From the NCBI GenBank assembly GCA_002355455.1, contig AP017375.1:5137640-5201639 (forward strand): a stretch of 64,000 nt of DNA. The letters run 5' to 3'. This document shows positions 47,577 to 51,382 of this stretch, piece by piece. Numbering within the stretch: position 1 is the stretch's first letter; each line of letters starts with the position of its first letter. The notes below the pieces were generated by a model. It did no database searches. It saw nothing but the letters and a program-made list of their open reading frames with translations, and was not told where the DNA came from. This stretch comes from Stanieria sp. NIES-3757 (GTDB lineage: Bacteria; Cyanobacteriota; Cyanobacteriia; Cyanobacteriales; Xenococcaceae). Position numbers and translations under genes: made by a program.

Positions 47577-47924
47577 CTAGAAAAATCCGAATTGAATATC
47601 TAAGGCTCTTTTAATTTGACTGAAATAATCTGATTCTAAAGTGCCAAGCTTCGATTTAAGGCGAGAAGAATCAATTGACCTAATTTGATTAAAATGCAGT
47701 CCTCTTTCTTTATCCAACTGATTTGACTCGCTTGGTTTTACGTTGACAACAAAAGGATAGTGTTTCGGACTCAGAAAAGGAACTACCGTAGTCAGATCGC
47801 TTTCTTCATTACCAATATCATTTTGAATAATCAAACAAGCTCTTATTTTCTTCGCTTCTTTTCCCTTTGTCGGATCGAGATCTACCCACCAAATTTCGCC
47901 TCGTCTACATTTCATCCAAACCAT
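47577..47924 (-). CDS. MazF/PemK-type toxin
   Basis: A 115-residue protein with the MazF-like start [33 protein letters not shown] and TTVVPFL, then the RxxHFNQIR and [12 protein letters not shown] segment of the family. MazF is a sequence-specific mRNA interferase. The Arg/Thr catalytic pair is plausibly conserved (CLIIQND, TVVPF). Its gene overlaps the end of the upstream antitoxin by 20 bases. Two starts are possible (47924 or 47915). Confidence 0.85.
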
Positions 47925-48283: not shown

Positions 48284-50761
48284 ATGGAGACTCCTCAAAC
48301 TCAATGGCAAATCTTGTCTTCTTTAGAACTACCCCAATGGTTTAGCGAGGCAGTCAAACGCTATTGCCACAATTCTGATGGACGCTATGCAGCACAATTA
48401 TTGTGGCAAAGAGGAATACAAGACCCTTTACAACTGCCTGGTTATCTCGATCCCGATGCCTATCAACCTAGTAGTCCCTTTGAATTTGGGGCAGAAATGT
48501 ATAGCGCGATCGCTCGTCTGAAACAAGCTAGAGAAAATGGCGAAAAAGTTACAATTTGGGGCGATTTTGATGCTGATGGGGTTACTTCGACAAGTTTATT
48601 GTGGGAAGGTTTAGGAGAGTTTTTTGGGCAACATCTTTTGTTAGATTATTACATCCCTAATCGTCTAACGGAGTCTCATGGTTTAAATCTAGCAGGAATC
48701 GAACGTTTGGCTACGACAGGTACAAAATTGATTGTTACTTGTGACACGGGTAGCACTAACCTGGAAGAAATTGAGTACGCGCAGCAACTAGGTATCGATT
48801 TGATTGTTACCGATCATCATACTTTACCAGAACAACGTCCTCCAGTTGTAGCAATTATTAATCCTCGTTATTTGCCCCAAGATCATCCCCTTTATCATCT
48901 TTCTGGGGTAGCAGTTGCTTATAAATTAATTGAAGCAATATACCAATCTTTACCCGATGTTCCCCAACAACCGTTAGAGAATTTATTAGATCTGGTGGCA
49001 ATTGGTTTAATTGCTGATTTAGTCCAGTTGCAAGGAGACTGTCGTTATCTTGCCCAACAAGGAATCAAACAGTTACAAAAACAAGCCAGAACCCATACCG
49101 CAACTCGCCCTGGCATTAGTTGTCTGTTAGAATTATGTAAACGCAGTGGCGATCGCCCTACGGATATTTCTTTTGGTTTAGGACCGAGAATTAATGCTGT
49201 CAGTCGCATTCACGGCGATGCTAGTTTCTGCGTGGAGTTATTAACTAGTCGCGATCGCAAAAGATGTCAGCATTTAGCTTTTGAGGCAGAATTAGCCAAT
49301 AGTCGGCGCAAATCGCTCCAAAATGACATTATCAAACAAGTAAAGCAGAAATTAACCCGAATCGATTTATCTACTACTTTTGTCATTGTGTTAGACGATC
49401 CTCAATGGCAAGGTGGTGTTTTGGGTTTAGTTGCTGGACAAATTGCCCAAGAATATGGTCGTCCGACAATTTTATTAAGTAGGAGTGAAACAGAAAAGGA
49501 TTCAGGTGACAGTTATTCTTTGGAAAATAACACTGAAGAGAATGTATCGATTGCCAGAGGTTCAGCCCGTTCGGTTAATCAAATTGATTTATATCAATTA
49601 GTTAAATCTCAAGCAAGTTTATTAGACCGTTTTGGTGGTCATCCTTTCGCAGCAGGTTTGAGTTTACCTGTAGAAAATATTCCCTTGTTTCGCGAAGGAA
49701 TTAATCAAAAGTTACGACAACAACTTGATACTCAATTATTAATTCCGAAACTCGAAGTAGATTTAACGGTTACTGTAGCTCAATTGGGTAAAGACTTATT
49801 TGAAGAATTAAACTTACTTGAACCTTGCGGAATGGGTAATCCAATTCCTAAATTATTGATTAAAAATTGTTGGTTTAAGAACGTTAGAAATAAAAATATT
49901 CAAGACCAAAAAGGACAAAAAATTCAATATATTAGAACAACTTTTGACTTGTGGGATAGCTCAGTTAAACATGGTTGTGCTGGAGTCTGGTGGGGGCATT
50001 ATCAACACGAAATACCCCAAGAAATGACTTGTGATGCAGTAGTCGAATTGTATTTTAATATTAATGCTTATCAACAAAAACAACGTTCCCAAGGTTATGA
50101 AATTCGTTTAGTAGCAGTCCGTCCCAGTCAAGAAAATATTTTATTTAATCACTCAGCAGTTGAAGCAGATGTTTTGATTGACCAACGTAATACATCAGAA
50201 TCCAGAATTCAACACGGTGATTGCACAATCGGACGGGGCTTACAAGCTGCCGACGCAGGTTCGGCAGACAGCCCCTCAGGAAACCTCCGAGTCCCTCACC
50301 GTCAGAATTCAGAATTTAGAATTTTAGAACAATGTCCTCAAAGTTGGCAGGAAATTTATCAACCTTATCGTCAAGCGATCGCTAATAATCAAAAATTGGT
50401 GTTAGCTTATTCACTTCCCGAACATCCCGATCCTCAAACAACTTGGCAACAATTAGTTGGCATAGTTAAGTATTTAATTCGGACTGATAAAACTGCTACT
50501 AAAACTCAAATTCAAACCAAATTAAATTTAAGCGATCGCTGCTGGTTATTAGGCTTAAAAGCTTTAGAAGCTAGTGGAATTGATTATCAAGTTACTGAAC
50601 AAAATTATTCTTTTAATTGGATAACTGAGAATTTTTCTGCACAAGCTGAAGCTGAAATCGCTAATTTTATCTTGGCAGTTGAAGAAGAACAATTTCAAAG
50701 ACAATATTTTACTCAAGTTCCGTTGTCAGTAATTACTCATCAGTTATCCGTTAATTATTAA
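48284..50761 (+). CDS. recJ: Single-stranded-DNA-specific exonuclease RecJ
   Basis: An 825-residue DHH-family 5'-3' exonuclease acting in recombination and mismatch repair. DHH motifs: WGDFDADGVTSTSLL (about 88-102), TCDTGSTN, VTDHHTLPE; the DHHA1 domain has FGGHPFAAGLSLP; an OB-like region follows. The frame carries an in-frame GC-rich palindromic insertion (residues about 640-676), flanked by 8-base direct repeats, and the last eleven residues come from heptamer repeats. The C-terminal extension after the insert (about 690-825) is typical of the longer cyanobacterial RecJ. Activity is probably retained because the core is intact. Confidence 0.93.
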   Translation: METPQTQWQILSSLELPQWFSEAVKRYCHNSDGRYAAQLLWQRGIQDPLQLPGYLDPDAYQPSSPFEFGAEMYSAIARLKQARENGEKVTIWGDFDADGVTSTSLLWEGLGEFFGQHLLLDYYIPNRLTESHGLNLAGIERLATTGTKLIVTCDTGSTNLEEIEYAQQLGIDLIVTDHHTLPEQRPPVVAIINPRYLPQDHPLYHLSGVAVAYKLIEAIYQSLPDVPQQPLENLLDLVAIGLIADLVQLQGDCRYLAQQGIKQLQKQARTHTATRPGISCLLELCKRSGDRPTDISFGLGPRINAVSRIHGDASFCVELLTSRDRKRCQHLAFEAELANSRRKSLQNDIIKQVKQKLTRIDLSTTFVIVLDDPQWQGGVLGLVAGQIAQEYGRPTILLSRSETEKDSGDSYSLENNTEENVSIARGSARSVNQIDLYQLVKSQASLLDRFGGHPFAAGLSLPVENIPLFREGINQKLRQQLDTQLLIPKLEVDLTVTVAQLGKDLFEELNLLEPCGMGNPIPKLLIKNCWFKNVRNKNIQDQKGQKIQYIRTTFDLWDSSVKHGCAGVWWGHYQHEIPQEMTCDAVVELYFNINAYQQKQRSQGYEIRLVAVRPSQENILFNHSAVEADVLIDQRNTSESRIQHGDCTIGRGLQAADAGSADSPSGNLRVPHRQNSEFRILEQCPQSWQEIYQPYRQAIANNQKLVLAYSLPEHPDPQTTWQQLVGIVKYLIRTDKTATKTQIQTKLNLSDRCWLLGLKALEASGIDYQVTEQNYSFNWITENFSAQAEAEIANFILAVEEEQFQRQYFTQVPLSVITHQLSVNY
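50203..50310. mobile_element. Palindromic insertion inside recJ with 8-base direct repeats
   Basis: CAGAATTC occurs at both ends (50203-50210 and 50303-50310). Between them lie nested inverted arms: ACGGTGA/TCACCGT (50214-50220, 50296-50302), GGGGCT/AGCCCC (50235-50240, 50270-50275), and CTGCCGA/TCGGCAG (50247-50253, 50261-50267). It is open in frame. The flanks are heptamer repeats of the CAGAATT type. Confidence 0.75.
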
Positions 50762-50791
50762 CTTCTGCCTTTTGCCTTCTGCATCCAAAAT

Positions 50792-50888
50792 AATATAGTC
50801 ATTTCAATTTAGAGTGAGACAATCGCTTCTTGCCATGAAAGGCTTTCAGCCAAAAAATGTTTCATTCTTATTTGAAACAAATATAACT
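50792..50888 (+). repeat. 97-base dispersed repeat, copy 1
   Basis: Begins AATATAGTCATTTCAATTT and ends AAACAAATATAACT; it contains the hairpin GTTTCA/TGAAAC. An inverted copy at 58640-58737 differs at roughly nine positions. Lies after recJ. Confidence 0.85.
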
Positions 50889-50893
50889 GTACA

Positions 50894-50913
50894 GACGTTC
50901 CATGGAACGTCTC
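50894..50913. terminator. 20-base palindrome between recJ and the SRPBCC gene
   Basis: AGACGTTCCA / TGGAACGTCT, a perfect inverted repeat, followed by CTAATATTTTATTG. It lies between convergent genes and may terminate either strand. Similar ACAGACGT starts occur at 17191. Confidence 0.55.
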
Positions 50914-50920
50914 TAATATT

Positions 50921-51382
50921 TTATTGATCGCTATCGCGATAAACTTGTTCTGCTACTCGTTTTAGCCTTCGTAGTTGAGCTTGCATATCATTTTTAGTCC
51001 AAGTTGCTGCAAACTGATTAAAACCCCAACTGACAACAGCATTAGGAATTTCAAACTCAAAACGATTAATTAATAAAGTTCCCTCTGACAAAGGGTGGCA
51101 TTCCCAGCGATCGCGTCCTTGAAAAAAACCATCAAACTGCCAGACAATTAAACCAGGTTCTCTTTCCACCACCACACTTTTAAGAGAAGGTTCTAGCAAA
51201 GGAATCTTAATGGTAAAACGGCTCAAACTACCAATAGCTGTATTCCATTTGCCAATTGGTTCGCATTTTAAAACAGGATTAAGCCAACGGTGCATTAACT
51301 CCAAATCAGTAAAACAACTTTCTACCACTGTCGCACTAGCTTTAATCGCGATCGATTGTTCAAAAATTTGAGGTGAGGACAT
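50921..51382 (-). CDS. SRPBCC superfamily protein
   Basis: A 153-residue protein of the START/polyketide-cyclase-like fold: QSIAIKASATVVESCFTDLE, LMHRWLNPVLKC, and a C-terminal helix beginning FAATWTKNDMQAQLRRLKR. Such proteins bind hydrophobic ligands in a deep cavity; cyanobacterial members are often annotated as 'cyclase/dehydrase' with no proven reaction. The start ATG at 51382 is followed by SSPQIFEQ. It is convergent with recJ. Confidence 0.82.
   Translation of the reverse strand: MSSPQIFEQSIAIKASATVVESCFTDLELMHRWLNPVLKCEPIGKWNTAIGSLSRFTIKIPLLEPSLKSVVVEREPGLIVWQFDGFFQGRDRWECHPLSEGTLLINRFEFEIPNAVVSWGFNQFAATWTKNDMQAQLRRLKRVAEQVYRDSDQ

Follow-up and report, generated by a model that had tools for sequence, protein, structure and literature searches.

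The block that interrupts the recJ gene of Stanieria sp. NIES-3757 probably consists of two minute, mobile palindromic modules, one nested in the other, a reading to which, together with the mechanism proposed below, we assign a probability of about 0.6. It measures 90 nt in total, with a 45-nt module sitting inside a second 45-nt palindrome. The host gene lies in a window of 64,000 nucleotides (contig AP017375.1, positions 5,137,640 to 5,201,639), the whole stretch of DNA that was analysed, and the features that concern us here are as follows.

48284 to 50761, plus strand: recJ host gene, an open reading frame of 825 aa with the Pfam domains DHH, DHHA1 and RecJ_OB and with NCBIfam TIGR00644 above cut-off
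50196 to 50209, plus strand: two heptamer units 5′ of the insertion (CAGAATC, CAGAATT)
50214 to 50303, minus strand: outer palindrome, 45 nt without the inner module, with GA...GT ends, read from its letters and arms
50233 to 50277, minus strand: inner 45-nt module, canonical (GA GGGGCT GT CTGCCGA ACCTGCG TCGGCAG CTTGTA AGCCCC GT), model match G000:C1:5187872-5187916 at 68.6 bits
50235 to 50240, minus strand: basal stem arm of the inner module, pairing with 50270-50275
50241 to 50246, minus strand: internal-loop motif CTTGTA as read on that strand, the commonest form among distinct modules
50247 to 50267, minus strand: variable apical hairpin of the inner module, an inverted repeat whose identical stem occurs with an inverted loop in loci L052 and L063
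50270 to 50275, minus strand: basal stem arm of the inner module, pairing with 50235-50240
50303 to 50323, plus strand: three heptamer units 3′ of the insertion (CAGAATT, CAGAATT, TAGAATT), the first base being common to the end of the outer palindrome

The first-pass annotation of this DNA had described a translated palindromic block with 8-base direct repeats at both ends, three nested inverted repeats and CAGAATT heptamers around it, and all of these components were recovered. The sequence CAGAATTC occurs exactly at 50203-50210 and 50303-50310, with a spacing of 92 bases. The inverted repeats ACGGTGA/TCACCGT (50214-50220/50296-50302), GGGGCT/AGCCCC (50235-50240/50270-50275) and CTGCCGA/TCGGCAG (50247-50253/50261-50267) all lie within 50214-50302, and the frame remains open without a stop across the block, at about residues 640-676 of the 825. 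The block folds at -41 kcal/mol against a shuffle mean of -27.4 kcal/mol (z = -3.87), beating 200/200 dinucleotide shuffles. The direct repeats are a different matter: both terminal CAGAATTC copies are units of the heptamer array, and with empty sites elsewhere showing no duplication, the pair is ruled out as a target duplication. The double heptamer CAGAATTCAGAATT has only two exact copies in the genome, so the array is local; the second copy lies at about 1001-1030 of locus L005, shortly 5′ of an ATG.

Where the annotation saw one small palindromic element, the letters resolve into two nested palindromes. The apical hairpin of the outer one carries the loop GGTTTCC, also known from canonical modules, and its geometry is one base off the canonical form; strict scans missed it. 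Given that one-base shift, we infer rather than demonstrate that it is a module; it is probably a degraded one of the same kind as the inner. An Rfam search over 49500-51200 gave no match at the gathering score and five sub-threshold ones (12.8-22.1 bits against cut-offs of 37-59). Beside recJ, at 47577-47924 on the minus strand, stands a PemK/MazF-like toxin gene (PF02452), and the short open reading frame adjoining it had no Pfam match.

RecJ was matched in 40/40 genomes and 30 loci were read, following the comparison with relatives that the annotation had proposed as a check. In the congener (G001), whose RecJ is 91% identical, the same block is present, with 21/281 compared bases differing and none of these in the inner 45. 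Outside the genus the segment has no counterpart in 28/28 loci read, and the recJ block is therefore an insertion, as had been supposed. The RecJ of locus L017 has a longer, unrelated insertion at the same linker. In the AlphaFold model, residues 639-674 have pLDDT < 50 and are flanked by better modelled parts, a prediction that fits a tolerated linker insertion.

The inner module is far from unique, and the further genomic copies that the annotation had thought worth seeking are many. From end to end it consists of GA, the first arm of a basal stem of 6 bp, GT, a stem of 7 bp that closes a 7-nt loop, then CTTGTA (or one of its variants), the second basal arm and GT. With the gap length left free to vary, 70/77 pattern matches are exactly 45 nt long, a set that includes one match of 55 nt with its ends on a viral contig, which we rejected as a copy for want of the module geometry. 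A model (R1) gave at least 45 matches at E ≤ 0.05 in the Stanieria genome itself, a lower bound, as 150 of 1454 candidates were scored. Within the family, matches at E ≤ 0.01 were present in 23/27 genomes, the richest having 112, and absent from the other four. In a survey of the phylum under stricter filters (E ≤ 1e-4, 16 candidates scored per genome), at least 14/386 genomes had matches. An exact-pattern search of a collection of named sequences returned 73 stretches, every one with a cyanobacterial title, among them Xenococcaceae/Pleurocapsales, Moorena, Aphanothece and others. Across 101 distinct modules the internal loop is CTTGTA in 50, TTTATA in 14 and CTTGAA in 11, and the common basal stem GGGGCT is accompanied by 13 others, from which the superfamily seems wider than our first pattern. 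A strict scan for geometry over 864 kb of the own genome is weak by itself: it gave 41 matches, and five Markov-type shuffles already gave 15-37. Eight of the 41 end in GA...GT and have a basal stem that begins with GG.

Insertion of the module can be followed where filled and empty sites are available for comparison. The gene for a CobW-type GTPase is 90 nt longer in Stanieria sp. NIES-3757 than in its congener (374 vs 344 aa, at 98% amino-acid identity), the addition being two nested 45-nt palindromes, and none of the 24 relatives that have a complete orthologue, of which the congener is one, contains the segment. Here 26 genomes were searched, our own among them; G016 has a paralogue only, and the pattern reading missed 5/25 loci, which were covered by split matches. 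The structure model of this protein is poor (mean pLDDT 67, residues 41-90 < 50) and was left out of the evidence. An S9 peptidase gene is likewise longer by 45 nt, or 15 residues, at a site that is empty in 14/14 relatives read, again including the congener; the pattern reading missed 1/16 loci (L336). Judged from these alignments, both genes have received clean in-frame insertions without target duplication, the unit of 15 codons keeping the reading frame, and the tolerance inside proteins that the annotation had suggested is upheld. An IS right end in genome G002 provides another such pair, L288 being filled and L319 empty with a difference of 45 nt. The same difference separates L173 from L053 and L064 from L091, and, less sharply, L149 from L222. 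Counting against a fixed unit, L067 and L084 appear to differ from L101, all repeated contexts, by 46 nt and not 45. No target duplication was seen at any of the empty-site pairs (CobW, S9 peptidase, the IS end, L173/L053 and others).

Modules also enter one another. Six of the 45 model matches in the own genome span exactly 90 nt, and 5/5 of those read proved to be a module within a module. When modules were removed from 122 insertion sites, a second one lay across the junction at 12, against 65/3660 random sites. Nine of these 12 self-nested copies sit at position 29|30 of the host module and on its opposite strand, two of the nine lying in copies of one repeat. The 122 sites were taken from the loci collected, wherever the flanks were distinct and criteria of geometry and motif were passed, and they are partly non-independent (recJ is represented from two species and some contexts are repeats); a reduced set comprises 99. 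In the own genome, loci L195, L196 and L197 (around 1440-1640) hold a repeat of ~200 nt, present three times, with a 90-nt nested pair in it and with ends resembling ATAGCA...TGCTATA. The module flanks of L060 and L142, read from their letters, resemble another 45-nt palindrome that is differently partitioned.

Insertion sites are enriched in palindromes. A hairpin stem of ≥ 7 bp crosses the joined site in 23/122 cases, as compared with 2.2% of random sites. A period of seven is present by a weak criterion in 14/122 (1.1% of random sites) and by a stricter one, a run of 9, in 6/122 (0.7%), again with sites that are partly non-independent. On inspection, the heptamer arrays among them are recJ, in the own genome and the congener, and three of CCTTCTG type (L141, L100, L187); three other sites share a single repeated context, and the remainder give no clear picture. 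The insertion into heptamer repeats envisaged by the annotation thus stands, weakly supported, for a minority of sites, and palindromes are the commoner target. In the reduced set of 99, the flanks prefer A/T at -4 (90 sites), G/C at -3 (75) and C at both +1 (56) and +2 (51), and they disfavour A at -1 (another base in 96), each with p < 1e-10 against rounded base frequencies.

Long open reading frames (≥ 200 codons) contain 36/107 insertions, whereas 66% of random windows fall in them. Insertions thus either avoid genes or are purged from them, yet a third are intragenic. Of the 27 host frames examined, seven encode TnpB; an RRXRR protein and an IS110-type transposase occur once each, and the others included CobW, S9 peptidase, GuaA, TamB, TPR, DnaG primase, AcrB-type, Omp85, NRPS and P-type ATPase. 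Some of these are stop-to-stop frames with the module near the start (L072, L077, L198) or near the end (L090, L110, L117), where it may fall outside the true gene.

The stems of the module vary strongly and remain paired. In 50 distinct copies selected by a pattern of which the inner stem was not part, 334 of 350 inner-stem pairs are Watson-Crick, 3 are G-U and 13 other; a second selection that ignored the inner stem gave 468, 6 and 16 of 490. Relative to one another, inner-stem cells changed on both sides in 132 cases and on one side in 2, with 13 unpaired, and their covariation of 0.508 compares with 0.105 in shuffles, none of 500 reaching it. A further set of counts (692, 4 and 11) came from copies selected for pairing, and so we left it out of the evidence. 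Loops change in a particular manner: 22/45 are found also as their reverse complement, and none as its reverse or its complement. Loci L195 and L196 have 195 nt in common and over that stretch differ in only three bases, all in the loop of the host module of the nested pair, which turn this loop into its reverse complement. In two further pairs, L117/L268 and L113/L116, near-identical flanks enclose different stems, either because the stem was replaced in place or because independent insertions struck one target.

Paired but variable stems with inverted loops fit a DNA hairpin that would have been rewritten through template switching, which PMC8794818 describes as acting on stems. The rarity of mismatches could alternatively come from strong selection for a perfect stem. 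Selection acting on RNA alone is disfavoured by the few G-U pairs, of which an RNA should admit more.

The same observations bear on whether the modules spread by reverse transcription of an RNA intermediate, a route reportedly proposed for the cyanobacterial SDR elements by Elhai in 2008. The hairpin would be strong as RNA and the nesting is SDR-like. The near absence of G-U pairs (3/350 and 6/490) and the inversion of a loop between otherwise identical copies, which resembles an event of DNA replication, speak against this route, and we hold it to be unlikely.

We return to the nested mobile modules and to how they might travel. The module would move as a folded single-stranded DNA hairpin, recognised through its shape, its GA/GT ends and its GT/CTTGTA internal loop rather than through its stem sequence. 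It would land where single strands or hairpins are exposed, namely in palindromes, IS200-like right ends and some heptamer arrays, and be joined about two bases past a W-W-S motif. A Y1/HUH-type enzyme of the IS200/IS605-like kind might act in trans, and template switching at replication would rewrite the arms and flip the loop. At recJ the module would have been placed in a flexible linker, where the protein could tolerate it.

Single-strand transposition of the IS200/IS605 type is our best guess for the putative mover, by analogy. Y1/HUH single-strand transposition (PMC6006769) would be expected to give clean insertion of a hairpin whose internal loop is conserved, with a short motif ahead of the cut and a preference for palindromic targets. 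The association with the enzyme itself is loose. Four tnpA-adjacent copies, which came from comparing two match lists, were behind the idea; against it, only 1/27 new loci picked by tnpA similarity has a module just downstream. Also against it, the own genome has at least 45 modules and 3 Y1 domains, and in G008 a single weak Y1 match contrasts with 10 modules. Over 27 genomes, the counts of modules and of Y1 domains correlate (Spearman 0.56), hardly above the correlation of modules with genome size (0.53), so that the two effects are not separable.

Movement by a REP-associated tyrosine transposase (RAYT), with the module as a REP sequence, would be a related solution. The length of the module falls within the 21-65 nt given for REP sequences in PMC6006769, Y1 domains of whatever kind occur in 27/27 genomes, and the CGTC of one REP family can be read at the end of 59/122 modules, only if the first flanking base is counted. 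The GTAG/GTGG of the other family, expected 0-2 nt 5′ of the foot, is found at 0/122 sites on one strand and 1/122 on the other, hence at a single site with both strands taken. The CGTC families have stems of 8-9 bp and loops of 4-5 nt (PMC3733652), as against the 6-bp and 7-bp stems, internal loop and 7-nt loop of the module. On balance this solution appears rather improbable.

The four tnpA-adjacent copies had also suggested that the module is simply the right-end hairpin of an IS200/IS605 element, left behind or carried along. It lies 11-61 nt past the tnpA stop in 7/47 distinct tnpA loci, some of them picked for a nearby module, and the TnpB and RRXRR host frames (7/27 and one) point the same way. 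For the cases read, the empty relatives contradict it: L319, in the same genome as L288, and L296, whose TnpA proteins share 79% and 77% identity with the one encoded in L288, are uninterrupted at the site and end in a different right-end hairpin. The module is therefore no part of the end proper of that IS. In L298 and L300, which are less close, the motif is likewise uninterrupted, and in L277 a module occupies almost the same position in the opposite orientation. We rejected this candidate as very unlikely. As an observation in its own right, several different IS200-like elements (L288, L277, L281, L275) have a module, in either orientation, where the right-end hairpin starts on its 5′ side.

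That no mobile element is involved, the RecJ linker having grown by heptamer slippage and chance palindromes, agrees with the heptamers on both sides of the block and with the variation of RecJ linkers among relatives (the long one of L017 included), and possibly holds for part of the outer palindrome, but is contradicted for the inner module, whose 45 nt belong to a dispersed family with precise ends and clean insertions elsewhere, and is most improbable as a whole.

A wider proposition goes beyond recJ, and we offer it tentatively, as a possibility that falls short of an expectation: that there exist 45-nt, self-nesting, single-hairpin mobile elements which are recognised by DNA shape, whose free stems are rewritten by template switching while the elements remain mobile, which target exposed hairpins and, within their own kind, a single constant position, and which, consisting of whole codons, may serve as a natural generator of 15-residue insertions in essential proteins. 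If true, a mobile unit of 45 nt may be among the smallest mobile DNA elements known, and its copies would offer examples from nature of template switching that rewrites stems and inverts loops. The pairs of filled and empty sites are clean material on how such elements move, and RecJ, the CobW GTPase and the S9 peptidase illustrate a route by which a protein may gain 15 or 30 residues in one stroke.

The titles and the starts of abstracts that we searched held no description of a 45-nt family, a coverage outside which most subscription papers fall and which is not proof of novelty. Among known systems, target duplication sets the MITEs apart, none being seen at the empty-site pairs of the module. 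The ends of IS200/IS605 elements have in common with it the lack of target duplication, an internally bulged hairpin and a short motif before the cut; here one hairpin alone is the unit, and in the case read it inserts next to the hairpin of the IS without being the end of that element. REP and REPIN sequences are also short multicopy hairpins that sometimes lie in repair or replication genes or in other palindromes, according to PMC3733652, PMC6006769 and PMC3116915, and the module differs from REP sequences by its fixed 45-nt unit.

The Rickettsia palindromic elements (RPE), to which the first-pass annotation had likened the block, do resemble the module in behaviour. PMC10969869 and PMC3733652 describe them as dispersed palindromes that sit in frame within numerous unrelated genes, as does the module, whose in-frame copies are established by comparison in CobW and the S9 peptidase and extend to recJ and further open reading frames with Pfam domains. 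RPE are given as about 150 bp long with a conserved peptide in PMC10969869; the module has 45 nt, variable stems, several reading frames and a cyanobacterial host. RPE families vary in size, and two of them are equated with CGTC REPs in PMC3733652. SDR elements are cited in PMC4390886, PMC3116915, PMC2884548 and PMC3733652.

Unit length differs, 45 nt here against the 21-27 nt reportedly given by Elhai et al. in 2008 (said to be in Genome Res 18:1484) for SDR elements of Nostoc punctiforme and relatives. SDR elements are said there to be very small, dispersed and mutually nested, to have a common secondary structure with compensatory changes, and to occur in heptamer arrays and mini-transposons. 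Compensatory stem changes (the covariation of 0.508 vs 0.105), self-nesting (12/122 insertions vs 65/3660 random, with six 90-nt matches) and heptamer arrays (recJ, L141, L100, L187) are shared, and the hosts differ, the module being found in Xenococcaceae/Pleurocapsales, Moorena, Aphanothece and others. Set against this description of SDR elements, the 45-nt module is nearest to these elements and looks like a larger variant of them.
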